A stretch of 64,000 bases of DNA from Herpetosiphon aurantiacus DSM 785. Lineage in GTDB: Bacteria; Chloroflexota; Chloroflexia; Chloroflexales; Herpetosiphonaceae. Below the pieces are notes generated by a model. The model saw nothing but the letters and a program-made list of their open reading frames with translations. It searched no databases and had not been told where the DNA came from. Of the stretch, positions 37,713 to 62,611 are shown in pieces. Location of the stretch: the NCBI GenBank assembly GCA_000018565.1, contig CP000877.1:1-64000 (forward strand), read 5' to 3'. A program made the position numbers and the translations under genes. Numbering within the stretch: position 1 is the first letter of the stretch; each line of letters starts with the position of its first letter.

Positions 37713-37869
37713 CGCTGATTCAGCCTCTTTTTTCACGATGGTCGTAGCGGGGATTTTCGGAACGAAAATGTTGTCACCCCAACCACCGCAAACCCATGCT
37801 ACCATAGCACGCAGCAATCACCTATGTAATCATCGGCACGCAGATCAGACACGAGAGGAGCTTCCACGA

Positions 37870-40230
37870 ATGATCAGTTTCCACCCCTTTGGCGGCGCAC
37901 AAGAAGTCGGCGCGTCGTGTGGCATTCTCAAACTGGGTATGCGCCATATCCTCGTCGATGCGGGCATGCGCCCTGCCGCCCGCCCTGGCCAATCGCGCAC
38001 ACCCGATCTCGAAGCCCTCAAAGGTTTTCCGCTCGATGCGATCCTGATTACCCACGCCCACATTGACCACACGGGCTGTCTGCCGCTCGTCGCCAGCTTG
38101 TTCCCGACTGTGCCGATCTATGCAACCGAAAGCACGATCGCGCTGATGCGGATTTTGCTGCTCGACAGTGCGCGGATTATGGAACAGGAACACCTCGCGC
38201 ATGAACTAGAAACGCCCTTGTATGACCAAGCGATGGTCACCGAAACCTTGGCGCGGATCATTCCCGTGGCGTTTCACCAAGAGCTGCGTCCCGTGGCCGC
38301 CAATCAAGAAATTAGCGTGACCTACCTGCCCGCAGGCCATATCCTCGGCGCGGGCATGTTGCATATCACGAGTCCATGGGGCAGTATCTTGCACACGGGC
38401 GATATTTCGGTCGGCCATCACCGCACCATCACGGGCGTTGACCTGAACACCTTGCCGCAGGTGGACATGATGATTTGTGAAGGCACCTATGGCAACCGCA
38501 GCCATAAATCGCGCAAAGACCAAGAGCAGAACGTGGTGGCCACGATTCAACAGGTGATTGGCCACGGCGGGCGGGTACTGATTCCGGCCTTCGCGGTGGG
38601 CCGTGCCCAAGAACTGATCTTGATCCTCAAAGCCTTCCGCACCTCCGGCGTGGTGTCGCCCGTGACGATCTATGTGGACGGCATGTGCAAAGCGGTCTGC
38701 GAGTCGTATCAGCAGCAATCGCATGACCTGCATCCGGCGCTGCAAAAATTCTTGGCCAATAGCCAACGCCCGTTGTTCGTCGATCCGAGCTTTGGCGTGC
38801 TGGCCGTGCATCAGGGGATGCGCCCGCGCGTGATTCAGAGTGATGAGCCAGCGATTATCATCAGCACGTCGGGCATGCTCACAGGTGGGCCAGCGCCGCT
38901 GTATGCGACGAAGTTAGCCCAAGACCCGCGCAATGCGATCATTTTCACGGGCTATCAGGATGAAGAATCGCCAGGCGCGGCGATGCTCAAAGCCACCCAA
39001 GGTGGAACCATCACGTTGAATGGCCAACGGGTGACGCTGGGCTGTCCGGTCTATCGCTATGGCTTGTCGGGCCATGCCGATCTGGGCCAACTCGAACAGG
39101 TGATTCGGCTCGTCCAGCCACAACAGTTAGTCTTGGTGCATGGCGATCACGATGCCCTCAGTCACCTCGCGGCCCGCTTCAAAAAACTGGCAGTGGCCAT
39201 TCCCGCTGCGGGCGATGTCGTCACCCTGACCCGCCGTGCGCCGACCGTGAGTCTGCAAGCGGGGCAACGACTGGATATGCCTACCGCTCTGCCGGTGGCG
39301 GTGGAAGTGGTGGCCGACCCTACGCCGCTGAAGCCTGCGCCCACGTTGGCGGATTTGTACGCGATTGCCACCGCCAATGGGATTCCTGCCCGCCCCTGGA
39401 CAGCGATTGAGCTTGGCGCAGCCTGGTATGGCACAGCCTATCAGCCCACCTTGCGACCGATTGTCGAGGGCGTGTTAAGTGTCGCGCGGAGTCATTTCCG
39501 CACTAAACGGCTCGGTAGCCAAACCGTGTTTACCCCGCGTCCAGTGCTAGAGAGTGGCGAGCCGAACGTGGCCGCACCACCCAAACCACAGCCGGATGAT
39601 CGCTGGGATGTCGTGCCGATTGGCCAGATTGTCTTGGTGCTTGGCTCGGCAGCGCCACCGGATCGCGTGCAGCTGGGGTTGATCACGGGTGAACCCACGG
39701 GCAGTACCGTGCCGCTGGTGGTCGAGGCGTGGAAAAGTCCCAGTCAAGTGCGCGATACGATTCACGGGGTCACGCCGATGAGCAAGCCAGAATGGGTGGG
39801 GCTGGAGCATGCCGAAATTCAAGCCAACTTGAAAGCGCTACGGGCGACGGTGGATGCAATTCCGATTGATGTACTGAAACTCTGGCAGGCACAACAGGGC
39901 CAACCTGCGAGACTCGAAACGCTGATGGCCTCGGCTCCGACCCTGGAGGAACAGGTGGCCACGGGCATCACGCTCATGCGGCGGGGCTTGCTGGTCTGGA
40001 AACGCGAGGGGGTACGCTGGATTCCCAAGCCGTTTGAATCCTTGAATGATCAAGCGCTGATTACGCGGCACTTGGATCTGATTACCCAAGTGGGAGCGAC
40101 GGTCACGCATATTAAGGATGGCCGCACGGGCACGCTCACGGGGCGGGGTGGCTGGTTGCAAGTCGAGGTGCGCTGGGATTCGGGCGTGGTGGAGTTGGTC
40201 AAGGATGGCTTGGTACGGCTAGAAGGATAA
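37870..40230 (+). CDS. Metallo-beta-lactamase/beta-CASP ribonuclease with long C-terminal extension
   Basis: A 786-residue protein. The start at 37870 (MISFHPFGGAQEVGASCGIL) has GAGGAG upstream. The zinc motif HAHIDH (His62, His64, Asp66, His67) and the beta-CASP motifs STSGMLTGGPA and GLSGHADLGQL mark an RNA nuclease of the CPSF/RNase J superfamily. The catalytic part ends near residue 450. The extra 330 residues hold a winged-helix-like segment (AAWYGTAYQPTLRPIVEGVL) and a C-terminal small beta domain (TGRGGWLQVEVRWDSGVVEL). The extension is unusual and may bind RNA or a partner. Confidence 0.8.
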   Translation: MISFHPFGGAQEVGASCGILKLGMRHILVDAGMRPAARPGQSRTPDLEALKGFPLDAILITHAHIDHTGCLPLVASLFPTVPIYATESTIALMRILLLDSARIMEQEHLAHELETPLYDQAMVTETLARIIPVAFHQELRPVAANQEISVTYLPAGHILGAGMLHITSPWGSILHTGDISVGHHRTITGVDLNTLPQVDMMICEGTYGNRSHKSRKDQEQNVVATIQQVIGHGGRVLIPAFAVGRAQELILILKAFRTSGVVSPVTIYVDGMCKAVCESYQQQSHDLHPALQKFLANSQRPLFVDPSFGVLAVHQGMRPRVIQSDEPAIIISTSGMLTGGPAPLYATKLAQDPRNAIIFTGYQDEESPGAAMLKATQGGTITLNGQRVTLGCPVYRYGLSGHADLGQLEQVIRLVQPQQLVLVHGDHDALSHLAARFKKLAVAIPAAGDVVTLTRRAPTVSLQAGQRLDMPTALPVAVEVVADPTPLKPAPTLADLYAIATANGIPARPWTAIELGAAWYGTAYQPTLRPIVEGVLSVARSHFRTKRLGSQTVFTPRPVLESGEPNVAAPPKPQPDDRWDVVPIGQIVLVLGSAAPPDRVQLGLITGEPTGSTVPLVVEAWKSPSQVRDTIHGVTPMSKPEWVGLEHAEIQANLKALRATVDAIPIDVLKLWQAQQGQPARLETLMASAPTLEEQVATGITLMRRGLLVWKREGVRWIPKPFESLNDQALITRHLDLITQVGATVTHIKDGRTGTLTGRGGWLQVEVRWDSGVVELVKDGLVRLEG

Positions 40231-40381: not shown

Positions 40382-41172
40382 CTACGACTGGCCTTTTGTC
40401 TTCATGATGGCTTGTAAAGAGACGAGATTCGCACGAATAATCTGGGTATCGGGATGCTCGGACCCCAACACTGCTTCATAGATAGCCAATGCCCGTTCAT
40501 ACAAGCGCTGCGCCTCCCCATACCGCCCTTGACGCTCTAAGACCACCGCCAGATTGTTCACACTCGTCGCCGTATCGGGATGCTCCGCCCCCAACACTGC
40601 TTCATAGATAGCCAATGCCCGTTCATACAAGCGCTGCGCCTCAGCATACCGCCCTTGCCGCTTCAAGACCAACGCCAGATTGTTCACACTCGTCGCCGTA
40701 TCGGGATGCTCCGCCCCCAACACCGCTTCCCGCACCGCCAAGGCCCGTTCATACAAGCGCTGCGCCTCAGCATACCGCCCTTGACTCTCCAAGACCACCG
40801 CCAGATTGTTCACACTCGTCGCCGTAGCGGGATGCTCCGCCCCCAACACCGCTTCCCTGATCGCCAAGGCCCGTTCAAACAAGCGCTGCGCCTCAGCATA
40901 CCGCCCTTGACTCTCCAAGACCAACGCCAGATTGTTCACACTCCACGCCGTATTGGGATGCTCCGCCCCCAACACCGTTTCCCGCACCGCCAAGGCCCGT
41001 TCATACAAGCGCTGCGCCTCAGCATACCGCCCTTGCCGCTTCAAGACCGAAGCCAGATTGTGCACACTCGTCGCCGTATCGGGATGCTCCGCCCCCAACA
41101 CCGCTTCCCGCACCGCCAAGGCCCGTTCATACAAGCGCTGCGCCTCCCCATACCGCCCTTGACTCTCCAAGA
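40382..41172 (-). pseudogene. 3' part of the broken STAND-TPR gene
   Basis: It codes for six tetratricopeptide repeats of the form GRYAEAQRLYERALAVREAV with GAEHPDTATS linkers, then the tail SLQAIMKTKGQS. It has no start of its own; the longer frame seen here begins inside the inserted element. Confidence 0.75.
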
Positions 41173-42448
41173 GGTGGTATAACGAAAGTGGTGCAAAATT
41201 AATGAGAGCCAGGTGGACTATACTTGGAGTTACCACACACCCAAGAAAGGACCACCATGACTCCCAGCAAGAAGCATACCCATTCGCCCGTGATCGGTCA
41301 AGCCGAAGCCCAAGCCAGTTTCCAGCAGCTGGTGCAGCACCAGATTCGGCAGGCAATTCGCGCCACCTTCATCGACATTTTGGAAGACGAAGTGGCGGCC
41401 TTCATCGGTGCACAGCCCTATGAACGTACCGACGAGCGGCGTGACCATCGCGCCGGACATCGCTCGCGCACGCTTGGCACGACCGCTGGCGTGATCGACG
41501 ATTTGCCCGTTCCGCGTACTCGTGGTGGCTTTCGCACCCAGCTGTTTGACCGCTACCAGCGCCGCATGCACGATGTCGATACCCTGATGCAGGATATGTT
41601 TGTCGGCGGGGTCAGCCAAACCGCCGTTGGCACGGTGGTCGAGCACTTAACGGGCAACGCGCCCAGTCCCTCAACGGTCTCGCGGGTGTTTCATACCCTT
41701 GATGACGAGTTTCAGGCCTGGCAAGCGCGTCCGTTGCCGCCACGCTACTGCTATGCCTTTGCCGATGGCACCTATTTCAGCGTGATCTACAATGGCCAAG
41801 GCCAGAAAATGCCCATTTTGGCCTTGATTGGCATCACCCCCGATGGCCAGCGCGAGGTGATTGCCTTCACGACGGGTGAGCGGGAAAACCAAGGCGCGTG
41901 GGAAAACCTGCTGGCCGACATCAAGGATCGCGGGGTGGACACCATTGATTTGTGGATTACCGATGGACATCAGGCGATGCTGAACGCGATTGCGGCGAAA
42001 TTTCCCGCGTCCCAGCGCCAGCGCTGTGTCGTGCACAAAATGAGCAACATCGAAAGCCACATTCCCGAGAAATACCGCGATGCACTGCACGCGGAGCTGC
42101 GGGCGATCTTCTATCAACCCGACCGAGCGCAGGCTGACCAAGCGGCAGCGGCGTTTATGGCCAAATACGAGCGCCAGTACCCATCAGCGATCCGCTGTAT
42201 GCAACGCGATTGGGAGGCCTGTTTGACCTTCTATGCCTATCCAGAAGGGCATTGGGTGAACATTCGGACATCGAATATCATTGAACGGACGTTCGAGGAG
42301 GTCAAGAAGCGCAGCAAAAAAATGGCGACGGCCTTTCGGAATGAGGGCAGTTGTTTACTGCTGTTTTATGCGGTCGTTCGAACACTTCAACTTCGCAAAA
42401 TTCGCATGCCTGGCTAAATTAATTTTGCACACTTCTTGACAAACCACC
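41173..42448 (+). mobile_element. IS256-family insertion sequence
   Basis: A 1276-bp element with ends GGTGGTATAAC and GGTGGTTTGTC and further matching inner bases (GTGCAAAATTAAT on both sides). It is flanked by the 8-bp target duplicate CTCCAAGA at 41165-41172 and 42449-42456. One intact mutator-type transposase gene lies inside on the plus strand. Confidence 0.9.
41257..42417 (+). CDS. IS256-family (mutator type) transposase
   Basis: A 386-residue transposase. The start at 41257 ([15 protein letters not shown]) has AAAGGA upstream. The DDE residues fall in [19 protein letters not shown] and [17 protein letters not shown], the last being the family hallmark. RCVVHKMSN and the C-terminal [17 protein letters not shown] are also typical. 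The frame is whole, so the element may still move. Confidence 0.93.
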
Positions 42449-44341
42449 CTCCAAGACCACCGCCAGATTGTTCACACTCGTCGCCGTAGCGGGATGCTCC
42501 GCCCCCAACACCGCTTCCCTGATCGCCAAGGCCCGTTCAAACAAGCGCTGCGCCTCAGCATACCGCCCTTGCCGCTTCAAGACCACCGCCAGATTGTTCA
42601 CACTCGTCGCCGTATCGGGATGCTCCGCCCCCAACACCGCTTCCCGCACCGCCAAGGCCCGTTCATGCAACTCCTCTGCAGCAGCATAGGCTCCTCGCAG
42701 ATCTTCATAAAAACCAAGACTATTGGCAAGGCGGGCTGCCTGGGCATCACCACGATCCAACGCCCGCATGGTGGCATACCGCAGATGCGGCGCAAGCGGC
42801 AGCATCGAACGTGGCACACCCGTCCCATTCGCACGGGATGCTGCAGCACCAATCCGGTCTTCCACCACGGCCAGCGTTTCGGACGATCCTAAATGTGCCT
42901 GCACAACCTGAGCGAGCAATCGGTGTAACACCACGGCATCCGTGCCATCGAGCAATCCAAGCTGCTGTAAGCGCCGCAACGCATCAACCCTGGCGGTATG
43001 GGTTGTCTCATCCGGCATGAATGTCAGCACCAACTCGCGCGGAATTGGTACACCCGGCGCACACCACGCCGCCCCATCAAGCATGCCCAATGCCAAGGCA
43101 TCAATCGTGTTGTCCGGATCAAGCTGGTTAAAACTCAACATAAACGTCGCGTCGACATTCTGTTCATGTTCGGTTGGCGAGTCAAATGCTCCATACCCAT
43201 GCAACGATTCATGGGCAATACTGAGGGCAGCACGATACGCCGTAATCGTAGGCCGATAGGTATGAAGATAGCTTCCTGCCAGATGTAACGCGAGTGGTAA
43301 ATGTCCCAGATCCTCCGCAATCAGATCAGCGTCAGCATCCGTGAGATCACTATAGAGCGACTGCAAGAGTGCTCGACTTTCTACGGGTGAGAGCACCCCA
43401 AGCTGGATCTGGGTTAGGGTTGGCCACTGATTGGATCGAGAAGTCACCAGCACCCGACAGCCGCCGACCGTGGGCTTCCACCGTTTGAGCAGTACGCGAT
43501 CTTCACAGTTATCGAAAATCAGCAAGCGTGGCATGGGCGATTTCCAAACGTTGAGAACCCGTTGCACCTGCTCATCGAGCGCCATCCCAGTAGTATCAAG
43601 TTTCAAGCCAACCGCACACGCGGCTATTTGACTGGCCACTTGATCGGGGTCGGCACAATTCAGCCAAAACACCCCGCCATAAAAGTAGACTCCATAGCGA
43701 TAGGCAAATTCGGTGACGAGGCTGGTTTTGCCAATACCACCAAGCCCTGTGGCCACCGCTGGCATGACGACCGCTGGTTGGGCTGAACCAATCGCCTGTG
43801 CCAACTGTTTCAATGCTTCTTCGCGTCCAACAAAGTGCGGGCTGGCTTCAAAGGGCAGGCGTGAGGGGTGGGGCAAATCCGCACGGGGTTCTGGTACATA
43901 ACCAAGCGGCATTGAGGCAAGGGCAGCGAGGGCAGCGGGCAGCGGATCAATCGGCTGGGGCTGGTGAATCGTCTGATGAATTGACCCATAATTATCGCGG
44001 ACAACAACCCCTGAAACACCACTCTCGTTGATCGTCATATCCCCATGGTGGATGGTGGCAGGCAACGAGGCACGGGCAATGAGCGCGGCGAGAGTCGGAT
44101 CAAGCGGCTGCGGGAGGTGGACGTTCATCGTGTAGCCTGCATGCACGTCGCCTATCGTCACCGTGGCATTGGTAAAATCATTGTTCTGGCCAAATAGCAT
44201 CGAGATCGTCTTGTCACCAAGCAACGCAGGATGGCCAGCAAAGACCGATTCGAGGGCCATCATAACACTCGCACGATCATACTGGGGGCAGTGGGCAAGA
44301 ATGGCATCGGCCACGATGGGTATGAGCGCGGGGACATCCAT
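42419..44341 (-). pseudogene. 5' part of the broken STAND-TPR gene
   Basis: It covers the N-terminal domain, NB-ARC NTPase and the first two tetratricopeptide repeats, then runs into the insertion and stops at 42419 after GGLSRSVQN, residues coded by the element. The truncated 640-residue protein would keep its switch but lose most of its sensor repeats. Confidence 0.75.
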
Positions 44342-44375
44342 GGGCGACTCCTCACACGGCGCTTAAGCGGGGCTT

Positions 44376-44413: not shown

Positions 44414-44905
44414 GGATGATGCAAAAATCACCCGCATGGGGGACGGACGCGATAGGCATGAGTGGCGCGGCGATGATGTGGAAACAGATTGATTATTCGG
44501 CTAATCAATCATTGGGTATTCTTCTTTAATCCAGTATCGAGCACGATACTGGAATGAAATCACGCTGACCAACATTCGTGCGGTAAGCCACAGACTGAAC
44601 ATAATCATTTCTGGCCTATTCTTGCAAATCTACCTATTAACAACGCTTTTACCATGCATCGCAAGCCAAGATTCGTGCTACCGAACGCCACGCCATTAAA
44701 AACATTAATGCGAGGGCCGTTTTTCGCTGAATGGACATGCAGGGTATGTGCGCTCGCCAACGCAGATTCCCCCGGTTTTCTCTATCGACCATGTGTGCTG
44801 ACGTAGGAGTGTTCGGTTGCGTGATCGTGCTATGGTATCAAGGTATGGGGCATCGGATAGAATACGCATCACTCAACACATCACGAACAAACCGTCAGCT
44901 ATCGC
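44414..44905. other. Intergenic between divergent genes, with two inverted repeats
   Basis: No gene is seen. Perfect repeats: TTGATTA/TAATCAA at 44489-44508, and CCAGTATCG/CGATACTGG at 44531-44552 with a 4-base loop. These could be operators or a terminator. A 61-codon frame at 44731 lacks a ribosome site and is not called. Confidence 0.4.
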
Positions 44906-44934
44906 TTGTATCGTGACCATTGCTTTGCTAGGAT
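44906..44934 (+). promoter_or_regulatory. Promoter for the CHAT gene
   Basis: TTGTAT (44906-44911), a 17-base spacer and TAGGAT (44929-44934), giving a leader of about 45 bases before ATG 44985. Confidence 0.45.
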
Positions 44935-44984
44935 AGAGGAACACCACCAACTACACAGTGCCAGCATGCCGAGGGTTTGTCACG

Positions 44985-47900
44985 ATGAGCAGCACGTTTG
45001 CATCCTTCCATCTCACCATTGCCGCCCCCCACGGGGATCGCTATCCCGTGACCGCCCGCACTCAGGCGGGCAATGAAGTCAATGAGGACATCCTACTGCC
45101 GCTTGATGATCCGACCCTGACCGTCTACCAGATGGCGCTGCGTTATCCCATATCTATTGACGAATCCGTGGTGATTGCGGTTGGCCAACTCCTCTACCAA
45201 GCCCTGTTTCAAGGAACCATTGCGGAAGCCTTTGCCACGGCTCGCGCCCACGCCGATCAGCAAAAAGTGGCGTTGCGTCTCCATTTGGCGATTCAGAAAT
45301 CCCTCCCCACAATTGCGGCACTTCCATGGGAACTGATGGCGACTGAGGCGGGCCGCCCGCTTATGCTGGAACATGCCTTAGTGCGAACTTTTTCGTGGAA
45401 CGATCCGATTCCTGATTTGGGGATTCCCTCGGGCGAGCGTATTCGGCTCGCCGTGACCTCGGCCTTACCTATGGAGTTGGCTGATCACCCGATTGCGGCG
45501 GAAGATGAAGTTGCCATCATCCGTGCTGCCATCACGCATAGCGCACGGCCAATTGATCTCATCGAAGTCCCTCACCTCACCCGCGACCGCTTGACCGATC
45601 TGCTCACGAACCAACGCCCCCATATCGTGCATCATATCGGCCATGGCATTATTCAATCAGATATGAGCTATCTCGACCTTGAACGCGCCGACCAGTCCCG
45701 TGATCAGCTCTCGGCTCGCGAGTTCAGCAGTATGCTGCATCAGTCAGGGGTACAGCTGGTGGTCTTGAATGCCTGCCACACGGGCAGCGCTGGCGAGAAC
45801 CTCCTCACCAGCTTTGCCCCAATTTTCATCACCGATCGCATTCCGGCAGCGATTGGCATGCAAGCCGCGATCCTGAATCGCACTGGCCACTGCTTTGCGA
45901 ATGCCTTCTATGCCGCCCTGGGCAACAGTGGATCGATTGATGCCAGCCTGATTGCAGCACGCAAGGCAATTTTGGCCGATGGGCATGAGCATGGGGCATG
46001 GGGGTTTCCAACCCTGTATAGTCGGGTTCCGCACAGCCAACTGTGGGGTTATCGAACGCCACAGCCTGTTGATCCACTCACCCAACGCGACCGCGAACGC
46101 ATCACCAAAGCCGCTCAACAAATCGAGAGTGATCGGCTTTTAAATCTGCGCCTTCAGGGCTTCGTCGGTCGGGTCAACGAACTGGCGGCCATGCGCGAGC
46201 ATATCGAAGCGATGCGGCCTACGGGGGGCTATGTCCTGATCAAAGCGGCAGCAGGCGAAGGCAAGAGTAGCAGCATTGCCAAGCTGATTCAGGAGGCGGG
46301 GATTGCGCAGACCCCGCACCACTTTATTGCCCTCACCACGGGCCGCGACTATCAATTGGGGTTGTTGCGTGCGGTGGTGGCGCAACTGATTCTCAAACAC
46401 AACCTGACGGTTTCCTATTTCCCCGAAGAAAGCTATCCGGCCATGAAGGGCGAGTTTGCGCGGATTCTGGATGATCTTTCCAAACAGGGGATTCAGGAAA
46501 CAATCTATCTGGATGGCCTCGATCAACTCCAACCAGAGCGTGATGGCTCTCGGGATCTCTCCTTTCTGCCACCGCAGCCGCCGCCAGGCATCGTGATCGT
46601 CCTTGGCTCACGACCGGATGAAACCTTGAAACCGCTGGAGATTTTGCATCGGGTTGATTATGCCTTGCCACCACTCAGCGAAGGGGATGCTCTCGCGTTG
46701 TGGCGATCGGTCCAGCCTGCCGTGGCGGATAGCCTCTTGCATGACCTCTATACAGCACTGAAGGGCAATGCGCTGTTTGTCTATTTGGCTGCCGATACGA
46801 TGCGCGATCAATCCGTGGTCGATGCGACCAGTTTGATTCGCCGGATTGAACAGAACCCGCACAACCTTTTCGGCATCACGCTGGAGCGGATCAAAAATCG
46901 TTCTGAGCATCGTTGGCCGACCATTTGGAAGCCCATGCTGGCGCTGTTGCTGGTCGCCCAAGAACCATTGCGGCTGGATGTCTTGGGCGATCTCCTCGAA
47001 CATGACCACGATACCATGCAGGATGCCGTGTGGGTCTTGGGCGGTTTGGTCAGTCAGGGCATTGATCAACGGGTTGCGCTCCATCATCTACTCTTTCGTG
47101 ACTTTTTGGCGGCATCGGTGTTTAATGATCGTGAGGTCAAACGCTGGCACCAACGACTGGCTGACTGGTGTGCGCAGGATGTGGATGCGATTTGGGCCGA
47201 TCATCCCGATACAATGGAACAAGCACGGCGGATCTATGCGCGGTATCACTACATCATCCATCTTGCACTGGCTGAGAACTGGACAACACTCTGGCAGGTC
47301 TTGGATACGGGCGACTATGGCGAACAGAAAACCCGCTTTGATCCGAGTACCCGCTTGTATGCGCTCGATTTGGATCGCGGACGTGAAAGTGCTATCACGG
47401 CGGGGCGATCAACCGAGGAACATATTCAGAACTTGCCACGCTTGTGGAAATATAGTTTGTTGCGGACGAGCTTAACCAGCCGTGTTGATCAATGGCCGGA
47501 TGAGGTGTTTGAGGTTTTGGCAATAGTTGGCCGCACGCACGAAGCATTGGAACGCATTGAACTTCTTTCGAGCAACGAGAATCAGATATCATGTTGGCTC
47601 AGGATTCTTCCATGGTGTGATAACAAACAACAGCATTTACTGGTCATGCGATTGGACGAGGTATGCAGACATCTTTCGGGCTTCGACAAAAAAATGGATG
47701 CGATTCGTGCTATTGCGAACGCTGCTGCCACCCACGGCCAGCGAGAACAGGCATTAGCGATTCTCACCACGGCTGTGTCCATCGCCCACTCCATTGATCA
47801 CCCATACTATAGGAGCGATGCGCTCGCGACCATTGCAAAAGACACCGCCACCTACGGCCAGCGAGAACAGGCATTAGCGATTCTCACCACGGCTGCGTCC

Positions 47901-50861
47901 ATCGCTCACTCCATTGATGACCCATCCGATAAGAGCGCTGCGCTCGCGACCATTGCAATTGCTGCTGCCACCCTCGGCCAGCGAGAACAGGCATTAGCGA
48001 TTCTCACCACGGCTGTATCCATCGCCCACTCCATTGATGACCCATACGAGAAGAGCGATGCGCTCGCGACCATTGCAATTGCTGCTGCCACCCTCGGCCA
48101 GCGAGAACAGGCATTAGCGATTCTTGCCACGGCTGTGTCCATCGCCCACTCCATTGATCACCCATACTATAGGAGCGATGCGCTCGCGACCATTGCAAAA
48201 GACACCGCCACCTACGGCGCTATCGACCAAGCCCTGTCCATCGCCCACTCCATTGATAACCCATACTATAGGAGCGATGCGCTCGCGACCATTGCAAATG
48301 CTGCTGCCACCCACGGCCAGCGAGAACAGGCATTAGCGATTCTCACCACGGCTGTATCCATCGCCCAATCCATTGATGGCTTCAATAAGAGCGCTGTGCT
48401 CGCGACCTTTGCAAATGCTGCTGCCACCTACGGCGCTATCGACCAAGCCCTGTCCATCGCCCACTCCATTGATGGCTTAAATAGGAGCGATGCGCTCGCG
48501 ACCGTTGCAAAAGGCATCGCCACCTACGGCGCTATCGACCAAGCCCTGTCCATCGCCCACTCCATTGATCACCCATACTATAGGAGCGATGCGCTCGCGA
48601 CCATTGCAAATGCTGCTGCCACCCACGGCCAGCGAGAACAGGCATTAGCGATTCTCACCACGGCTGTATCCATCGCCCAATCCATTGATGGCTTCAATAA
48701 GAGCGCTGTGCTCGCGACCTTTGCAAAAGACACCGCCACCTACGGCGCTATCGACCAAGCCCTGTCCATCGCCCACTCCATTGATCACCCATTGCAACGA
48801 CGCGATGTTCTCCTTATTATCGCAGCCACTGCTGCCACCCACGGCCAGCAAGAACAGGCATTAGCGATTCTTGCCACAGCTGTGTCCATCGCCCACTCCA
48901 TTGATGACCCATCCCATAAGAGCGCTGTGCTCGAGACCATTGCAAAAGACACCGCCACCTACGGCGCTATCGACCACGCTGTATCCATCACCCAATCCAT
49001 TGATAGCCCATACCATAAGAGCAAGGCGCTCGCGTCCATTGCAAATGCTGCTGCCACCCTCGGCCAGCGAGAACAGGCATTAGCGATTCTCACCACGGCT
49101 GTATCCATCGCCCACTCCATTGATCACTCATACCATAAGAGCGCTGTGCTCGCGACCTTTGCAAATGCTGCTGCCACCTACGGCGCTATCGACCAAGCCC
49201 TGTCCATCGCCCACTCCATTGATGGCTTAATAAATAGGAGCGATGCGCTCGCGACCGTTGCAAAAGGCACCGCCACCTACGGCGCTATCGACCAAGCCCT
49301 GTCCATCGCCCACTCCATTGATCACCCATTGCAACGGCGCGATGTTCTCCTTATTATCGCAGCCACTGCTGCCACCCACGGCCAGCGAGAACAGGCATTA
49401 GCGATTCTTGCCACGGCTGTGTCCATCGCCCACTCCATTGATATCCCATGGCAGAAGAGCGATGCGCTCGCGACCATTGCAAAAGACACCGCCACCTACG
49501 GCGCTATCGACCACGCTGTGTCCATCACCCACTCCATTGATGACCTATTCTATAAGAGCGATGCTCTCTTTATTATCGCAGCCACTGCTGCCACCCTCGG
49601 ACAGCAAGAACAGGCATTAGCGATTCTCGCCACAGCTGTGTCCATCGCCCAATCCATTGATAGCCTATACTATCTGAGCGATGCGCTCGCGACCATTGTA
49701 AATGCTGCTGCCACCCACGGCCAGCGAGAACAGGCCTTGGCCATCGCCCATTCCATTGATGACCCATCCCATAAGAGCGCTGTGCTCGCGACCATTGCAA
49801 TTGCTGCTGCCACCCACGGCCAGCGAGAACAGGCCTTGGCCATCGCCCATTCCATTGATGACCCATACCATAAGAGCGATGCGCTCACGACCATTGCAAA
49901 TGCTGCTGTCACCCACGGCCAGCGAGAACAGGCATTAGCGATTCTCACCACGGCTGCGTCCATCGCCCACTCCATTGATGACCCATACTATAAGAGCGGT
50001 GCGCTCGCGACCATTGCCAACGCTGCTGCCACCCTCGGCCAGCGAGAACAGGCATTAGCGATTCTCGCCACGGCTGCGTCCATCACCCAATCCATTGATG
50101 ACCCATACGAGAAGAGCGATGCGCTCGCGACCATTGCCAACGCTGCTGCCACCCTCGGCCAGCGAGAACAGGCATTAGCGATTCTCGCCACGGCTGTGTC
50201 CATCACCCACTCCATTGATAGCCCATCCCATAAGAGCACTGTGCTCGCGACCATTGTAAATGCTGCCACCCACAGCGCTATCGACCACGCTGTATCCATC
50301 ACCCAATCCATTGATAGCCCATACCATAAGAGCAAGGCGCTCGCGTCCATTGCAAATGCTGCTGCCACCCTCGGCCAGCGAGAACAGGCATTAGCGATTC
50401 TCACCACGGCTGTATCCATCACCCACTCCATTGATAGCCCATCCCATAAGAGCACTGTGCTCGCGACCATTGCAAATGCTGCTGCCACCTACGGCGCTAT
50501 CGACCAAGCCCTGTCCATCGCCCACTCCATTGATGACCCATTGCAACGGCACGCTGTACTCGCGACCATCGCAGCCGCTGATGCATCCCAAGACGCTATC
50601 GAACGTGCGCTGTCCATTGCCCACTCCATTGACAATCTAGACCACCGTGCCGAGACCTTTCGCATCATTCTTCAAAAAGACCTATCAGTCATAGACGTTT
50701 TAACAAGCATTCAGCATGAATGGTTCCGCAGTAAAATACCTCAGGATCTATGGACAATGACACCAATGATTGCTCCATTATTAAACGACTATCCATGGTT
50801 AGGAACAGTAATTCTGGAAGAAGAGGCATGGGTGAACGAACAACTCAAACGACTGGGGTAA
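44985..50861 (+). CDS. CHAT protease-NTPase protein with about 27 tandem helical repeats
   Basis: A 1958-residue protein. The start at 44985 (MSSTFASFHLTIAAPHG) has GAGGG upstream; an in-frame GTG at 44958 is the alternative. A caspase-like CHAT domain occupies roughly 1-370, with the catalytic pair His220 (HHIGHG) and Cys264 (LNACHTGSA). A NACHT/AAA-type NTPase follows with AAAGEGKSS (Lys427) and the Walker B-like IYLDGLDQLQ. From about 905 to 1885 it is built of long (40-residue) and short (31-residue) helical repeats such as GQREQALAILTTAVSIAHSI, followed by a unique tail. The layout suggests a cytoplasmic sensor-protease that cuts a target on activation, as proposed for CHAT-STAND conflict systems. 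The partner substrate is unknown. Confidence 0.85.
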   Translation: MSSTFASFHLTIAAPHGDRYPVTARTQAGNEVNEDILLPLDDPTLTVYQMALRYPISIDESVVIAVGQLLYQALFQGTIAEAFATARAHADQQKVALRLHLAIQKSLPTIAALPWELMATEAGRPLMLEHALVRTFSWNDPIPDLGIPSGERIRLAVTSALPMELADHPIAAEDEVAIIRAAITHSARPIDLIEVPHLTRDRLTDLLTNQRPHIVHHIGHGIIQSDMSYLDLERADQSRDQLSAREFSSMLHQSGVQLVVLNACHTGSAGENLLTSFAPIFITDRIPAAIGMQAAILNRTGHCFANAFYAALGNSGSIDASLIAARKAILADGHEHGAWGFPTLYSRVPHSQLWGYRTPQPVDPLTQRDRERITKAAQQIESDRLLNLRLQGFVGRVNELAAMREHIEAMRPTGGYVLIKAAAGEGKSSSIAKLIQEAGIAQTPHHFIALTTGRDYQLGLLRAVVAQLILKHNLTVSYFPEESYPAMKGEFARILDDLSKQGIQETIYLDGLDQLQPERDGSRDLSFLPPQPPPGIVIVLGSRPDETLKPLEILHRVDYALPPLSEGDALALWRSVQPAVADSLLHDLYTALKGNALFVYLAADTMRDQSVVDATSLIRRIEQNPHNLFGITLERIKNRSEHRWPTIWKPMLALLLVAQEPLRLDVLGDLLEHDHDTMQDAVWVLGGLVSQGIDQRVALHHLLFRDFLAASVFNDREVKRWHQRLADWCAQDVDAIWADHPDTMEQARRIYARYHYIIHLALAENWTTLWQVLDTGDYGEQKTRFDPSTRLYALDLDRGRESAITAGRSTEEHIQNLPRLWKYSLLRTSLTSRVDQWPDEVFEVLAIVGRTHEALERIELLSSNENQISCWLRILPWCDNKQQHLLVMRLDEVCRHLSGFDKKMDAIRAIANAAATHGQREQALAILTTAVSIAHSIDHPYYRSDALATIAKDTATYGQREQALAILTTAASIAHSIDDPSDKSAALATIAIAAATLGQREQALAILTTAVSIAHSIDDPYEKSDALATIAIAAATLGQREQALAILATAVSIAHSIDHPYYRSDALATIAKDTATYGAIDQALSIAHSIDNPYYRSDALATIANAAATHGQREQALAILTTAVSIAQSIDGFNKSAVLATFANAAATYGAIDQALSIAHSIDGLNRSDALATVAKGIATYGAIDQALSIAHSIDHPYYRSDALATIANAAATHGQREQALAILTTAVSIAQSIDGFNKSAVLATFAKDTATYGAIDQALSIAHSIDHPLQRRDVLLIIAATAATHGQQEQALAILATAVSIAHSIDDPSHKSAVLETIAKDTATYGAIDHAVSITQSIDSPYHKSKALASIANAAATLGQREQALAILTTAVSIAHSIDHSYHKSAVLATFANAAATYGAIDQALSIAHSIDGLINRSDALATVAKGTATYGAIDQALSIAHSIDHPLQRRDVLLIIAATAATHGQREQALAILATAVSIAHSIDIPWQKSDALATIAKDTATYGAIDHAVSITHSIDDLFYKSDALFIIAATAATLGQQEQALAILATAVSIAQSIDSLYYLSDALATIVNAAATHGQREQALAIAHSIDDPSHKSAVLATIAIAAATHGQREQALAIAHSIDDPYHKSDALTTIANAAVTHGQREQALAILTTAASIAHSIDDPYYKSGALATIANAAATLGQREQALAILATAASITQSIDDPYEKSDALATIANAAATLGQREQALAILATAVSITHSIDSPSHKSTVLATIVNAATHSAIDHAVSITQSIDSPYHKSKALASIANAAATLGQREQALAILTTAVSITHSIDSPSHKSTVLATIANAAATYGAIDQALSIAHSIDDPLQRHAVLATIAAADASQDAIERALSIAHSIDNLDHRAETFRIILQKDLSVIDVLTSIQHEWFRSKIPQDLWTMTPMIAPLLNDYPWLGTVILEEEAWVNEQLKRLG
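47690..50640 (+). repeat. Near-identical coding tandem repeats
   Basis: About 27 units, mostly around 120 bases (long) and 93 bases (short), inside the CHAT gene. Blocks like GGCCAGCGAGAACAGGCATT and GCCCACTCCATTGAT recur almost unchanged, so the array has recently expanded or been homogenised. It is coding in one frame throughout. Confidence 0.9.
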
Positions 50862-51028: not shown

Positions 51029-51946
51029 TCACTTCTGCGCCCACGGCAAAAACACGGTGGAGCGCGGCGGAATCGGGGTCATGGTGGCGGTTGGCGTGCT
51101 CGTTGGTGTGCTGGTCGGTGTCGGGGTCTCCGTCGGCGTGTTGGTTGGTGTATTCGTTGGTGTCGAGGTCTCCGTTGGCGTATTGGTCGGTGTGGTGGTC
51201 GGGGTCTCCGTTGGCGTATTGGTCGGCGTTGGACTGGCATTGCCGACATCGTAGAAGTTATACGGCAGGTGTAGCTCAGGAAACAGTAGGCTTGGATGGA
51301 TACATTGGCCGAGGATGTTAATCTGCGTACACGGCTCAAGACCGAGACCGGGCAATAAGAATCGATAGAATGGGTCTTCCCCAACACTCGGCGCTCCGTA
51401 CACCCGATACCAGACCCGCGTTCCGCTGGGGTATGGCGGAATCATGCACTGTTCGATAAAGTGCGATTGTTCCGGTTGACCACGAAAGCTGCCGACGAAG
51501 ACAAAGGCGAATTCTAGGTCACAGGATTGGTACGGAGCAACATTATTCGGGATGCCCGTCCCATAGAGAATGCTCAAGTCAGTCATGGACTCTGCGGGTC
51601 TGATCACGGAGATCGTCACCCCCGTCGTTTGGTCGATCACCCCATGCGCCGCATGCACAAAGGGATAGGTTTGCCCAGGAACCAATTCCACCTGCGGATC
51701 GACCCCCATGGCCTGGTGGTAGGCATAGTCCCAACCCCTATCGAGGATTGGCGTGGGCACCGACCTCCTGGGCCGATCCGCCCCAGTATTCGTGCCTCCA
51801 TGCAGCGGCGGATCGGTCGCCGCCCCCGCTGGATACACTGCTGGCAGGGCAAGCAGCCACGCCACGAGACCAACCATCCCCACCCCCATCCACCCTCCAA
51901 CGCGCATTCGCCCCATCAGTCGCCCCGATTCGTTCCGGTGATCCAT
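51029..51946 (-). CDS. Secreted protein with TPT-rich stalk and LP-type C-terminal tail
   Basis: A 305-residue protein. The start at 51946 (MDHRNESGRLMGRMRVGGWM) has GGAGG upstream. A signal peptide ends near PAVYPAGAA. The folded part (about 45-235) contains several Cys and a possible beta fold (YAYHQAMGVDPQVELVPG). From 236 on it is a Thr/Pro stalk of TPTNTPTETPT type, ending PPRSTVFLPWAQK. Short LP-containing ends after TP-rich stalks are common in Chloroflexota secreted proteins and may be a sorting signal. Its role is unknown. Confidence 0.65.
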   Translation of the reverse strand: MDHRNESGRLMGRMRVGGWMGVGMVGLVAWLLALPAVYPAGAATDPPLHGGTNTGADRPRRSVPTPILDRGWDYAYHQAMGVDPQVELVPGQTYPFVHAAHGVIDQTTGVTISVIRPAESMTDLSILYGTGIPNNVAPYQSCDLEFAFVFVGSFRGQPEQSHFIEQCMIPPYPSGTRVWYRVYGAPSVGEDPFYRFLLPGLGLEPCTQINILGQCIHPSLLFPELHLPYNFYDVGNASPTPTNTPTETPTTTPTNTPTETSTPTNTPTNTPTETPTPTSTPTSTPTATMTPIPPRSTVFLPWAQK

Positions 51947-52369
51947 CCGCAGCCTCCATTCACACACGCAGCACGCCGCGCCATTCCCTGATGAAAGCGA
52001 TTCCATCATGGGACACTCATTCGCCAAGAACGAGATGCCCGCCGTCGGATTCTGTCAGTTCGGGCTGATCGGCCTCCCGTAGTCCATGATTGATTCCTCA
52101 CCCAATCAATCACGCGCCCGCACACAACGCCGCCAATCGTCGATGCATGGTCGCCTGCCGGAACCGCCGCTGGACACCATGCGCTCGCGCTCGTCAGACG
52201 CTTTTTCTTTGGCTCGTAAAATCATTCCTATGGCTTGCACGACTTAAGCCGCGCTGCCGCCGAATGGCAGCACGCTGGGTGGCGTGCTGATGATCCTCGG
52301 TTAAGCCCCGAAATGCTCCTATTATTTCGTTGTACCATAGGGTAATCAGAACCTAATGCAGGAGCAACC
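51947..52369. other. Intergenic with one perfect hairpin
   Basis: CAGCACGC (52268-52275) and GCGTGCTG (52282-52289) form an 8-bp stem with a 6-base loop. No gene is supported; a 66-codon Arg/Cys-rich frame at 52090 looks like noise. Confidence 0.4.
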
Positions 52370-52915
52370 ATGACACTTAATATTAATCTGTTGACGGATC
52401 AAACAATCTTTCTCTTAACGGCGGCAGGGTGGTCACCTGAACGAACCTATGATCCGACAACGACGATTATTCAACCCCTGACGACGATCGGCTGGCCGAT
52501 TTTTCCGGAGGCCCAGCGCATTTTTACCGCACTTGGCATGCTGAACTTGAATCTTCAGCACCTTCCACCGATTCCCCCCGATCCACGAACGACGACACCC
52601 GATCCAATCGCGTTGCGTGACCATCTCTGGTACGCCGACATCCGGATTGATTTCGATCCCGCCGAGGCATTTGCCATTGATGATGAGGATTTTATTGTGT
52701 ATTGGTCGTCCCACCCGCTCGTTCAACTCCATGGAGGTGGTATCTGCCCCATTGGTAGTTACCACCCATGGGATACCCTCTTGGTGTGTGGTGATGGCTT
52801 AATCGTTCATGGAAGTCCGGAATTTATGAACCCTGCTCCCGGATTGGTGGTGCTTGGGTCAAATATTGAAACGGCACTCAATCAGCTTGCTCATCAGGCA
52901 GTCTTTTTCGTGTAA
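52370..52915 (+). CDS. SUKH-3-like protein 1
   Basis: A 181-residue cytoplasmic protein. GGAG lies 6 bases before the ATG. The N-terminal pattern LTAAGWSPERTYDPTTTI followed by WPIFPEAQRIFTALGMLNL matches the SUKH-3 style of immunity proteins (AGW-P-R, then a fold with a leading Gly-Leu strand). A middle strand set (DEDFIVYWSSHPLVQLHGG) and a C-terminal helix follow. SUKH proteins usually neutralise nuclease or deaminase toxins, but no toxin gene is beside this one. It is followed 18 bases later by a paralogue. Confidence 0.6.
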   Translation: MTLNINLLTDQTIFLLTAAGWSPERTYDPTTTIIQPLTTIGWPIFPEAQRIFTALGMLNLNLQHLPPIPPDPRTTTPDPIALRDHLWYADIRIDFDPAEAFAIDDEDFIVYWSSHPLVQLHGGGICPIGSYHPWDTLLVCGDGLIVHGSPEFMNPAPGLVVLGSNIETALNQLAHQAVFFV

Positions 52916-52933
52916 TGTGTGAAGGAGGATCAG

Positions 52934-53518
52934 ATGCCAGACGATGCCATAGCAATTGCACAATGGCTCTTGACTAACGCCGGATGGAACCCGGAACGGC
53001 AGATTGATCCAATGCCACTCCTTGCTTGGTATCAAACGCATGGCTATACGCTGTGGCCAGAAGCAGACCTCTTTGTTCGCTCGTTTGGGAGGCTTCAGCT
53101 TGATACCAGTGTGTATAGCGAGCAGCATCTCCCGCCAGAAGCGGTTCCCACGCGGGAACCCATCACTCCCATGCGGTTCCGCTGGTGGCGACACGGGCGA
53201 GCATTTGCCATCCACCTGCATCCCGAAAGCATTCCCGACCTTCCGACCGCGATGCAGGTCTGGTCGACAAGTCGCGTCGTCCAAACACGGGATAGAGCAC
53301 TTCCGCTTGGCACATGCCGTACTCCCTTGAGTCCATACCAACGCCCACTCTTCTTGCATCGTCAGTATGGTCTGCTCCTTGAGTGTCCTGGGTATCGAAA
53401 GATGCAGCCCTTTCCCCTGTTTCAATCGTATGGGACGAGCATGTTGGAATTACTGACCATTATTGTTCGGCAATGCGTGATCTATGAGTGGACGAAAGAT
53501 ACATGGCCATATTCGTGA
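52934..53518 (+). CDS. SUKH-3-like protein 2
   Basis: A 194-residue paralogue of the gene at 52370-52915. The start at 52934 (MPDDAIAIAQWLLTNAGW) has GGAGG five bases upstream. It keeps LLTNAGWNPERQIDP and LWPEADLFVRSFGRLQL, and a similar outline after that (HPESIPDLPTAMQVW, then PLGTCRTPLSPYQRPLFLHR). The middle is shorter in Asp and richer in Arg/His than the sister, so the two may bind different partners. The gene is co-transcribed with the first. Confidence 0.58.
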   Translation: MPDDAIAIAQWLLTNAGWNPERQIDPMPLLAWYQTHGYTLWPEADLFVRSFGRLQLDTSVYSEQHLPPEAVPTREPITPMRFRWWRHGRAFAIHLHPESIPDLPTAMQVWSTSRVVQTRDRALPLGTCRTPLSPYQRPLFLHRQYGLLLECPGYRKMQPFPLFQSYGTSMLELLTIIVRQCVIYEWTKDTWPYS

Positions 53519-53864: not shown

Positions 53865-56726
53865 TCATTGGAACTGGATAGATTCCTTCAATTCGGCACC
53901 ATATACCCGTAGTCGATTGGTCATTTCATGATCTCGCCCAATACTCTGTTCATACAGCATGCATGCGCGTTCGATTAATCCAACCGCTTCAATTGATCGA
54001 TCTTGAAGCATAAGCAGGCATCCCATATTCTCAATAACGGTTGTCGTATCGGAATGGTGGAGGCGGAGTAACGGCTCATAAAGAGCCAGCGCCTGTTCAA
54101 ACAGATATTGGGCATCCTTAAAACAGCCTTGGGACGCGAACAAAACCGCACAATTATTAAGGAGTACGGCTCGGAGACCATACCCTTTAGCCGTAATCAG
54201 ACTGTTCAGATTATTTCTTGTTGTCGCCGTATCGGGATGCTCCGACCCCAACACCGCTTCCCGTATCGCCAAGGCCCGTTCATAGCACTGCTCCGCATCG
54301 CCATACCGCCCTTGATGCGCAAGGACTCCTCCCAAATTACTGATAACTGCTGCGATCTCGGGATGCCGTGGTCCTACGACCCGCTCATAGATCCCAATCG
54401 CCTGCTCCAAGATGGGCTGCGCCTCCGCATAGCGTTCTTGGTGAATCAACGCAAGGCCGAGATGGTGTATGCAGAGTGCGGTCGCTCGATGCTCCCTTCC
54501 ATGAACACGTTCATTAATCCCAATCGCCCGCTCCATAAGGGTCTGCGCCTGGGCTGCTTGCCCTTGGTTGATTAACGCGAAGGCCCAATTATGGAGGCTC
54601 ATCGCGGTATCCGGATGCTCCGCACCCAAGACGGTTTCGATGATCGCAACAACCGTTTCATGAATGCGTGCAGCAGCAGCATACTGTCCTTGCCGCTCCA
54701 ACATCAGCGCGATATTACTCCGATACTTTGCCGTTGTCGGATGGCTATCTCCCACGAGAGCGGTCGTGATCGCCACCGCCTGTTCATAGCAGTGCTGCGC
54801 CTCGCGATATCGTCCTTGGTGTTCGAGCACAACACCACGATTATTCAAGGACATCGCGGTGTCGGGATGATCGGCTCCTAACACCCTATCCCGAATCGCG
54901 ATGCTTCGTTCGATTAATGGCAGGGCTTCAGCATACGCGCCCTGGTGATCCAAAACGACCCCCAAATTCGACAGAATCCCCCCTGTATATGGATGATCCG
55001 CACCCACTACCTGCTCCGTAATAACCAATGCGTGTTCATACCATGCTTGGGCTTCCTTATACCGCCCTTGATGGGCGAGAGTAACTCCTAAATTATGGAG
55101 GATTCCTGCGGTTATGACATGCCCCATACCAAGGTGTGACCCACAAATGACGAGTGCGCGTTCATAGACGATCTGTGCGGCGGCATAGGCACCGTGCAAT
55201 TGCTCAAATGCGCCAAGCTGATCGGCTAACTGAATCGCCACCAGATCGCCACGGTCTAATGCCCGTAGGGTCACATACCGCATATGGGCAATCAGGGGTG
55301 TCAACCGTTGCGGGTTCCCGCTCGCCGTTACCGTCGCCGTTACCCATGCAAGACACGATTCAACCTCGGCCAACATGTCTAACGATCCTAACCGCGACTG
55401 GACAACTTGCGCCAGCAAGCGATGCAGTACGACGAGTTCAGTGCCATTGAGCAATCCAAGCTGCTGCAAACGACGCAGGGCATCAACCGCATCATCACGA
55501 TCCGTCGTTCGACTCGGATGTCCATCGTCACCAGCCTCGGCAAGCACCAACGCCAGCACCAGATCACACGGGATTGGCACACCTGGCGCACACCACGCCG
55601 CGCCATCGAGCATGCCTAAGGCCAACGCATCAAGCGCATTATTGGGATCAAGCTGGTTAAAACTGAGCATAAAGGTCGCTTCGACATCCAGTTCATGGCG
55701 CGTGGGTGAGGGCAGTGCTCCCCGTCCCTTGAGCGAGCGGTGGGCAATCGTTAAATCCTTGCGGTATTGGCCAATCGTATGATGGGGATAGGTTGCGAGA
55801 TAACTGCCCGCCAGATGCAACGCCAGCGGCAAATGCCCCAGATCCTCGGCAATCGCATCGGCTTCAGCATCGGTCAACCGCGCACAGAGTCGCTGCAATA
55901 ACGCGCGACTTTCGACAGGCGACAACAGCCCAAGCCGAATCTGCGTGAGTGTTGGCCACGCATCGGATCGCGCCGTCACCAGTACGCGACAGCCGCCCAC
56001 CGTAGGCTTCCATTGGTCAAGAATCGCTGGATCTTCACAGTTATCAAAAATGAGCAAGCGCGGCATGGGCGATTGCCAGGCATGCAAAACCCGTTGCACC
56101 TGCTCATCGAGTGCCATTCCGGTGGTATCAAGCTTCAAGCCAACCGCACAGGCCGCAATTTGATTGGCCACCTGATCAGGATCGGCACAGTTCAGCCAAA
56201 ACACCCCGCCCTGAAAATACACCCCATAGCGATAGGAAAACTCCGTCACCAGGCTCGTTTTGCCAATCCCGCCAAGACCCGTGGCCACCGCTGGCATAAC
56301 AACCGCTGGCTGCGCCGTGCCAATCGCCTGCGCGAGCGCGTTCAATTCGGCCTCGCGCCCAACAAAATGGGGACTCGATTCAAAGGGCAGGCGTGAGGCT
56401 TGGGGGAGATCGGAACGCGGCGTGGGCACATCTGTCAAGGGAATCGAGGCAAGGGCTGCAAGGGCAGCGGGTAAGGGATCAATCGGCTGGGGGAGCGTCA
56501 CCGTGACATGCACCTGATTTCCGGCATTGACATCGCCAATCGTGATCGTGGCATTGGTATAATCATTGTTTTGGCCAAGCAGCATCGAAATGGAGTTGCC
56601 ACCCAACAGCGTGGGATGACCCGCAAAGACTGATTCGAGCGCAATAGTCACGCTCGCCCGATCATACTGTGGGCATTTGATGAGAATCGCATCGACCAGA
56701 ACGGCAATGAGGGCTGGCAATTCCAT
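53865..56726 (-). CDS. STAND (NB-ARC)-TPR protein, intact
   Basis: A 953-residue protein paralogous to the broken gene at 40382-44341. The N-terminal helical domain (MELPALIAVLVDAILIKCPQ) and the TNATITIGDVNAG beta stretch are shared. The NB-ARC NTPase has GLGGIGKTSL (Lys156), LLIFDNCED (Asp228) and GHLPLALHLAGSYL. Nine or so tetratricopeptide repeats fill the C-terminal half (GRYKEAQAWYEHALVITEQV and GRYGDAEQCYERALAIREAV, among others). The family serves as ATP-driven sensors in defence, regulation or cell death. GGAG lies upstream of the ATG. Confidence 0.85.
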   Translation of the reverse strand: MELPALIAVLVDAILIKCPQYDRASVTIALESVFAGHPTLLGGNSISMLLGQNNDYTNATITIGDVNAGNQVHVTVTLPQPIDPLPAALAALASIPLTDVPTPRSDLPQASRLPFESSPHFVGREAELNALAQAIGTAQPAVVMPAVATGLGGIGKTSLVTEFSYRYGVYFQGGVFWLNCADPDQVANQIAACAVGLKLDTTGMALDEQVQRVLHAWQSPMPRLLIFDNCEDPAILDQWKPTVGGCRVLVTARSDAWPTLTQIRLGLLSPVESRALLQRLCARLTDAEADAIAEDLGHLPLALHLAGSYLATYPHHTIGQYRKDLTIAHRSLKGRGALPSPTRHELDVEATFMLSFNQLDPNNALDALALGMLDGAAWCAPGVPIPCDLVLALVLAEAGDDGHPSRTTDRDDAVDALRRLQQLGLLNGTELVVLHRLLAQVVQSRLGSLDMLAEVESCLAWVTATVTASGNPQRLTPLIAHMRYVTLRALDRGDLVAIQLADQLGAFEQLHGAYAAAQIVYERALVICGSHLGMGHVITAGILHNLGVTLAHQGRYKEAQAWYEHALVITEQVVGADHPYTGGILSNLGVVLDHQGAYAEALPLIERSIAIRDRVLGADHPDTAMSLNNRGVVLEHQGRYREAQHCYEQAVAITTALVGDSHPTTAKYRSNIALMLERQGQYAAAARIHETVVAIIETVLGAEHPDTAMSLHNWAFALINQGQAAQAQTLMERAIGINERVHGREHRATALCIHHLGLALIHQERYAEAQPILEQAIGIYERVVGPRHPEIAAVISNLGGVLAHQGRYGDAEQCYERALAIREAVLGSEHPDTATTRNNLNSLITAKGYGLRAVLLNNCAVLFASQGCFKDAQYLFEQALALYEPLLRLHHSDTTTVIENMGCLLMLQDRSIEAVGLIERACMLYEQSIGRDHEMTNRLRVYGAELKESIQFQ

Positions 56727-62609: not shown

Positions 62610-62611
62610 TG

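Follow-up and report, generated by a model that had tools for sequence, protein, structure and literature searches.

A plasmid-borne CHAT-STAND protein with a separately homogenised repeat array in Herpetosiphon aurantiacus, a candidate NLR-like receptor-protease

Results

The locus on plasmid pHAU02

Herpetosiphon aurantiacus is a filamentous and predatory bacterium which can be cultured. The genome of strain DSM 785 comprises three replicons of 6,346,587, 339,639 and 99,204 bp, in agreement with the published sizes of the chromosome, pHAU01 and pHAU02 (PMC3368417). The window, i.e. the whole 64,000-nucleotide stretch of DNA analysed here, corresponds to bases 1-64000 of the 99-kb plasmid pHAU02; a search of PLSDB, which probably omits the H. 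aurantiacus genome, returned no DNA match to this plasmid. The gene under study encodes a protein in which a CHAT protease domain, a STAND NTPase (hereafter the chassis), a long array of TPR-like units and a C-terminal cap follow one another (Table 1), a layout that recalls the immune receptors of animals, plants and fungi. An alternative start codon is present (GTG, 44958), and the ATG at 44985 is the start common to five close CHAT relatives.

Table 1 Features of the CHAT-STAND locus, with coordinates in the window
Feature	Coordinates	Strand	Evidence
Beta-CASP metallo-beta-lactamase-fold protein	37738..40230	+	Pfam; whole or fragmentary copies, 83-94% identical, next to four other chassis loci
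Interrupted STAND-TPR gene, 3' part (TPR repeats)	40382..41164	-	Pfam; target duplication
IS256/Mutator-type insertion sequence	41173..42448	+	PF00872; ends, terminal inverted repeats and duplication
Same divergent STAND gene with KLC-type TPRs, 5' part, interrupted by the insertion sequence	42457..44341	-	Pfam TPR_12/AAA_16/NB-ARC; target duplication
Longer intergenic block	44526..44944	.	blastn, 80-86% identity with the upstream DNA of three EAD-type genes
Short upstream block common to CHAT-type and EAD-type chassis genes	44889..44944	+	47-59 bp, 81-87% identical
CHAT-STAND-repeat protein, 1958 aa	44985..50861	+	ORF; ATG context common to relatives
CHAT protease domain, residues 66-336	45180..45992	+	Pfam PF12770, E=4e-24; genome scan; motif positions
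STAND NTPase chassis (winged-helix and helical region), residues ~370-926	46092..47762	+	70-85% identical in paralogues; VIA-align
Array of 27 helix-turn-helix TPR-like units, residues 932 to ~1909	47778..50711	+	Anchors; AlphaFold; Pfam TPR_8/TPR_12
Conserved C-terminal cap, YPWLGT..L....WV.EQLKRLG	50712..50858	+	Conserved in 26 aligned C-termini; H. giganteus alignment
Two SUKH-3-like genes in tandem	52370..53518	+	Weak Pfam matches; right flank common with H. giganteus

The original prediction placed the protein between two STAND-TPR genes and two SUKH-like genes, a description that holds in part. The two STAND-TPR frames read on the left-hand side (40382-41356 and 42419-44341, minus strand) are a single gene split by an IS256/Mutator-type element, which is bordered by an 8-bp target duplication, CTCCAAGA, at 41165-41172 and 42449-42456. 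Two other chassis loci (C1:2556554 and C2:180785) have further copies of this type of element nearby. The SUKH-like genes are indeed two and in tandem, but their SUKH-3 matches are weak, one falling just above and the other just below the Pfam cut-off. The pair was considered as part of the system and rejected: few homologues occur in the genome, and only the window locus and its H. giganteus counterpart are accompanied by them. Like the STAND-TPR gene, the SUKH pair adjoins the locus without being a conserved partner. A more recurrent neighbour, absent from the original prediction, is the beta-CASP gene, copies or fragments of which adjoin five chassis loci, that of the window included; the other copies, in two further species, stand without a chassis gene in the stretches read. 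This gene may be a partner, or it may indicate a hotspot of integration. The window also contains a minus-strand ORF of 332 aa with low-complexity repeats and without Pfam match (51029-52027) and, at 57969-63868, Septu-like PtuB and PtuA genes, after which come the M and S genes of a type I restriction-modification system.

Domains and fold of the CHAT-STAND-repeat protein

The catalytic positions named in the original prediction, a His220/Cys264 protease and a Lys427 NTPase, were recovered exactly. PF12770 matches the N-terminal domain with 86 bits, against a curated cut-off of 24; His220 (codon 45642-45644) lies in the motif HHIGHG, residues 216-221, and Cys264 (codon 45774-45776) in LNACHT, residues 261-266. 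Judged from these motifs, the CHAT domain would act as a cysteine protease through the His220/Cys264 dyad. In the chassis, the Walker A motif GEGKSS spans residues 424-429, with Lys427 encoded at 46263-46265, and the Walker B motif LDGLDQ begins at 46509; GxGKSS and DGLDQ are invariant in the aligned chassis NTPases.

As modelled, the chassis adopts the STAND NOD fold with a winged helix. With VIA-align, residues 378-762 matched MalT best (Z 16.5, rmsd 6.1, 327 aligned residues) together with Apaf-1 (Z 16.1, rmsd 6.6, 337 aligned), and both matches take in the winged helix. Foldseek placed Avs3 (8dgc), its first hit, the STAND-TPR protein PH0952 and Apaf-1 at the top. The CHAT domain matched the SAVED-CHAT protease 8tl0 both by sequence and by Foldseek; only the NTPase part of the CHAT-NTPase model is reliable, and structure searches with the CHAT part are weak because its model is of low confidence.

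A homogenised repeat array

The original prediction described about 27 nearly identical repeats in two lengths. The number stands, with 27 unit anchors and 26 spacings (13 of 40, nine of 33 and four of 32 aa), as do the 33- and 40-residue lengths apart from the four spacings of 32; the near identity does not hold for the array as a whole, where pairwise DNA identity between units averages 0.785 (range 0.56-1.00). The 40-residue units are 33-residue units in which helix B is longer by two turns, and the last 260 residues were predicted by AlphaFold as an all-helical TPR-like solenoid (pLDDT 90). TRF scores reach 1501, which excludes the array as a product of chance. A few unit pairs are recent copies, namely 12/24 (100%), 5/8 (99%) and 10/15 (97.5%), and some recent duplicates occur in blocks of two to three units (permutation p=0.009). 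Against the fungal criterion of >85% identity over >100 aa, the array averages 66% at the amino acid and 79% at the DNA level, with some unit pairs at 95-100%.

Each array of the family carries its own consensus. Identity within arrays exceeds that between arrays both for amino acids (0.66 vs 0.38) and for DNA (0.79 vs 0.50), and was higher within in every case tested; the arrays are homogenised separately inside each gene. Unit counts vary among paralogues, one genome per species being compared. Near-copy arrays extend beyond the CHAT family, as the neighbouring STAND genes with KLC-type TPRs (window 40446-41172 and 53865-56726) also have units of 42 aa, which in the first of these arrays are ~91% identical in DNA.

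A possible assembly artefact had been raised with the original prediction. The replicons of DSM 785 are finished Sanger sequence at 11x, from 3-kb, 8-kb and fosmid libraries (PMC3368417), and a collapsed or invented array is therefore unlikely, the copy number being that of the finished assembly without a read-level recheck. Comparable arrays are present in six independently assembled genomes.

Selection on the variable columns

The variable columns of the unit are 8-12 and 14, a set which was chosen post hoc on this array and applied a priori to ten others; they lie in the loop preceding helix A and on the first turns of that helix. The ratio of non-synonymous to synonymous polymorphism (pN/pS), which is approximate on recombining repeats, was 2.9 at these columns in the present array (bootstrap 1.8-7.8). 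All six codons seen at column 8 differ in the first two bases only. In all ten other arrays, three of them from other Chloroflexales families, pN/pS was higher at the chosen columns than at the remaining ones; it exceeded 1 in four of the ten, with an interval excluding 1 in a single case, a Chloroflexales array at 1.4 (1.06-1.80). Five of the ten, which are older, gave values of 0.73-0.89, to be read either as saturation or simply as relaxed constraint. In the other arrays, the variable positions are concentrated on a single side of helix A (p=0.011); the same test on the present array alone gave no significant clustering (p=0.10).

Diversifying selection is well supported in this array and suggestive across the family. 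The original prediction of a sensor array under diversifying pressure is supported by within-gene homogenisation together with a non-synonymous excess in a fixed set of columns. Two caspase-STAND proteins of other Chloroflexales (L063 and L064) have near-copy units of 33 aa which vary at the same positions (AIADP-FWR-AEAL).

A modular family with exchangeable effectors

The H. aurantiacus genome encodes about a dozen relatives of the gene, spread over all three replicons, and the Herpetosiphon members of the near clade are 70-85% identical in the NTPase. The chassis is preceded by a CHAT domain, by a caspase (PF00656), or by a domain of ~90 residues with a beta-rich linker, which is here labelled EAD-like from its position and size and matches no library family; in a more distant clade nothing lies ahead of the NTPase. 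The caspase of a paralogue resembles the EACC1-associated type with a score below the cut-off. A separate gene with the EAD-like domain was sought in the genome: only chassis genes were retrieved, the other matches sharing the linker alone, and no trans partner using this domain was found. The linker (ANLAIGNQVGGNLVQ type; window 44069-44374 and 56454-56720, C1:2814197) recurs in STAND families that are unrelated to one another, and also in a membrane protein.

In a tree of the NTPases of 29 proteins, the N-terminal types are intermixed, with at least 11 changes against a minimum of four, and one caspase protein and one CHAT protein are sisters with support 100/100. A first alignment, in which distant CHATs came to lie beneath the NTPase, was left out of the folding. 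Immediately ahead of the start region, CHAT-type and EAD-type genes have 47-59 bp of DNA in common, and in some cases >400 bp; they are alike again from residue ~370, and the effector in between is unrelated. The short block at 44889-44944, presumably the promoter region, forms the left arm of homology that borders the effector cassette. Conserved NTPase and cap, combined with exchangeable N-termini and gene-specific arrays, make this an NLR-like modular family.

Contig C54 of H. giganteus is syntenic with the window. DNA identity amounts to 86.8% for the beta-CASP gene, 87% for the upstream block, 80.8% for the NTPase, 80% for the cap (last 64 bp) and 92.6% across 1336 bp for the SUKH pair. 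The effector there is EAD-like, and neither effector nor array can be aligned to the window gene as DNA; since the flanks, the NTPase and the cap are conserved, effector and sensor have been replaced between conserved arms. The 332-aa protein encoded at 51029-52027 is absent from the H. giganteus locus.

Loss of the catalytic residues in relatives was a further concern raised with the original prediction. Five of the six close CHATs, namely the present protein, L029, L044, L045 and L046, retain both His and Cys. The one loss is found in L039 of H. giganteus, where the Cys loop is deleted and WD40 repeats take the place of the array behind the chassis NTPase. This protein is a 2239-aa fusion (L039:5049-11765) with a truncated NTPase and an alpha-amylase-like domain after the WD40 repeats, and apparently has a second CHAT-like end. 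In H. llansteffanensis (L046:165-5108), a CHAT domain 88% identical to the present one sits on an unrelated STAND NTPase with HEAT repeats, and directly 3' of it lies a caspase-chassis gene which is truncated where the contig ends.

Distribution

Of 301 Chloroflexota genomes sampled, 23 contain the chassis NTPase; they comprise all six sampled Herpetosiphon species, several members of further families in the same order, and a single family that is more distant. A scan for its pattern across 84,980 genomes, of limited sensitivity, matched Chloroflexota only. The Chloroflexota genera in which the chassis occurs are mostly filamentous.

Discussion

A proposed switch with a replaceable sensor and effector

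The protein is probably a bacterial NLR-like (STAND) receptor-protease, in which a diversifying solenoid senses a ligand and a NOD-type switch releases the CHAT protease. At rest, the NTPase would be kept closed through contacts with the C-terminal solenoid. A ligand would bind the solenoid at the variable residues, which occupy the loop ahead of helix A and one side of that helix, upon which the NTPase would open and protomers would assemble. Activation of STAND-TPR proteins as described for MalT and PH0952 serves as the model for such a release of autoinhibition (PMC6468293). Assembly would bring the N-terminal CHAT domains together and turn on cysteine-protease activity, and cleavage of a cell protein would lead to growth arrest or cell death. 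At the family level, two kinds of exchange operate around the constant NTPase and cap: the N-terminal effector is replaced in its entirety between the homologous upstream and NTPase arms, and units are duplicated, lost and homogenised in each gene, accompanied by diversifying change at the putative ligand-facing codons. From the architecture, the defence-gene neighbourhood and the known biology of STAND and CHAT proteins, we infer an immune or cell-death role, with defence or allorecognition as its likely context. More tentatively, the family may constitute a repertoire for the recognition of self/non-self or of pathogens, which diversifies like the fungal HNWD genes, with a fixed switch, effectors swapped at the same loci, arrays re-made under positive selection and about a dozen copies per genome.

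The ligand may not be of phage origin. In an allorecognition reading, the solenoid would recognise a variable protein carried by prey or by other Herpetosiphon filaments, and contact would lead the protease to kill or isolate the cell. The evolutionary regimen is that of the fungal HNWD receptors (PMC4986451), the fungal HET-E and HET-D act likewise, the fungal precedent has been cited for bacterial STANDs (PMC10907252), and most genera with the chassis are filamentous. These parallels make it a serious reading of the repeats, albeit an unlikely one: the Septu-like and type I restriction-modification genes in the plasmid neighbourhood are anti-phage genes, which fits a defence role. Moreover, those STAND sensors that have so far been characterised in bacteria, the Avs proteins, recognise phage proteins, with terminase or portal as their ligands.

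The pattern in the repeats could also arise without diversifying selection, if tandem duplication and gene conversion homogenised the units and the variable columns were merely exposed. Protein repeats in general have been described as being under strongly relaxed purifying selection (PMC5120217), and the five older arrays with ratios below 0.9 are in line with such relaxed constraint. We consider it doubtful as an explanation, given the excess in the present array and in the independent Chloroflexales array, the confinement of the column 8 differences to the first two codon bases, and the swapping of effectors at the same loci. Less probable still is a regulatory STAND of the MalT/AfsR kind, engaged in metabolite sensing or in the control of development or predation, with CHAT in ordinary proteolytic regulation. 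HetF, a CHAT protein, is involved in cyanobacterial cell division; in NCBIfam the present protein matches HetF, NsdA and AfsR weakly, each time under the cut-off, and MalT is its top structural match. Nevertheless, a housekeeping regulator would not be expected in about a dozen divergent copies spread over chromosome and plasmids and differing in presence between species, nor with swapped effectors and replaced arrays.

Relation to known systems

The receptor-protease proposed here has a close parallel in the fungal HET-E/HET-D and HNWD proteins (Dyrka et al. 2014, PMC4986451), which have the same tripartite effector, NOD and repeat design, repeats homogenised within genes, positive selection at fixed unit positions and combinatorial exchange of effectors. 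The selected positions lie on the ligand face in the fungal proteins, whereas here that face is putative; furthermore, the present family is bacterial, resides on plasmids and chromosome, carries CHAT, caspase or EAD-like effectors and is built of 33/40-aa TPR-like units. Exchangeable peptidase or adaptor N-termini on a STAND NTPase are also a trait of the STAND/EAD conflict systems (Kaur et al. 2020, PMC7159879; 2021, PMC8195603), which are enriched in filamentous bacteria. A MoxR-vWA or EACC1 partner, a feature of those systems, was not recognised at the pHAU02 locus; the main texts of the two papers do not name Herpetosiphon, and their accessible parts do not describe concerted repeat evolution in bacterial members.

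Avs (AVAST) proteins, e.g. Avs3 (8dgc), likewise combine an N-terminal effector, a STAND NTPase and a long C-terminal TPR-like sensor, but the protein studied here has an array of near-copies and a CHAT effector, and PADLOC assigned it only generic STAND_TPR and TPR models with weak E-values and no Avs model. STANDs of the PH0952/MalT type share the NOD fold and the helical-repeat sensor (PMC6468293), and are transcription regulators lacking both a protease domain and homogenised arrays. In Craspase (TPR-CHAT/Csx29) and SAVED-CHAT (8tl0) a CHAT protease is gated by another module, which is a CRISPR complex in the former and a cyclic oligoadenylate sensor in the latter, while here the gate would be the STAND NTPase with its solenoid. 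Identity with the TPR-CHAT of type III-E CRISPR was rejected, as the domain order is CHAT-NTPase-repeats and no cas genes were found among the scanned neighbours. The STANDs of multicellular bacteria diversified by diversity-generating retroelements (DGRs) are conflict proteins with a diversifying sensor as well (PMC10907252); diversification here proceeds through repeat units and Pfam detected no C-type lectin domain. DGR diversification has no support on pHAU02, where the only reverse transcriptase lies near 10 kb in a frame of 589 aa, a size like that of group II intron enzymes. Frames with this domain in the genome measure 437-800 aa, the shortest being typed by size only.

Multicellular bacteria were already known to have STANDs whose peptidases are exchangeable (PMC7159879, PMC8195603), and H. 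aurantiacus to have metacaspases (PMC3501461); STAND sensors diversified by DGRs (PMC10907252) and the fungal regimen were known as well. Each element has therefore been described; their occurrence together in a single bacterial family, in which a syntenic locus has had both effector and array replaced, is apparently new, no earlier report having been found in the openly accessible literature.

Conclusions

Replacement of protease and sensor around a constant switch fits a receptor engaged in an arms race or in self/non-self recognition. If this reading is correct, the renewal of NLR receptors seen in fungi, with repeat shuffling, selection on the binding face and effector swapping, would also operate in a bacterium, and would do so in a species that can be cultured and whose genome is finished. 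Module swaps among about twelve natural paralogues, which have one switch in common and differ in effector and sensor, could then be used in the search for sensor-ligand and protease-substrate pairs.
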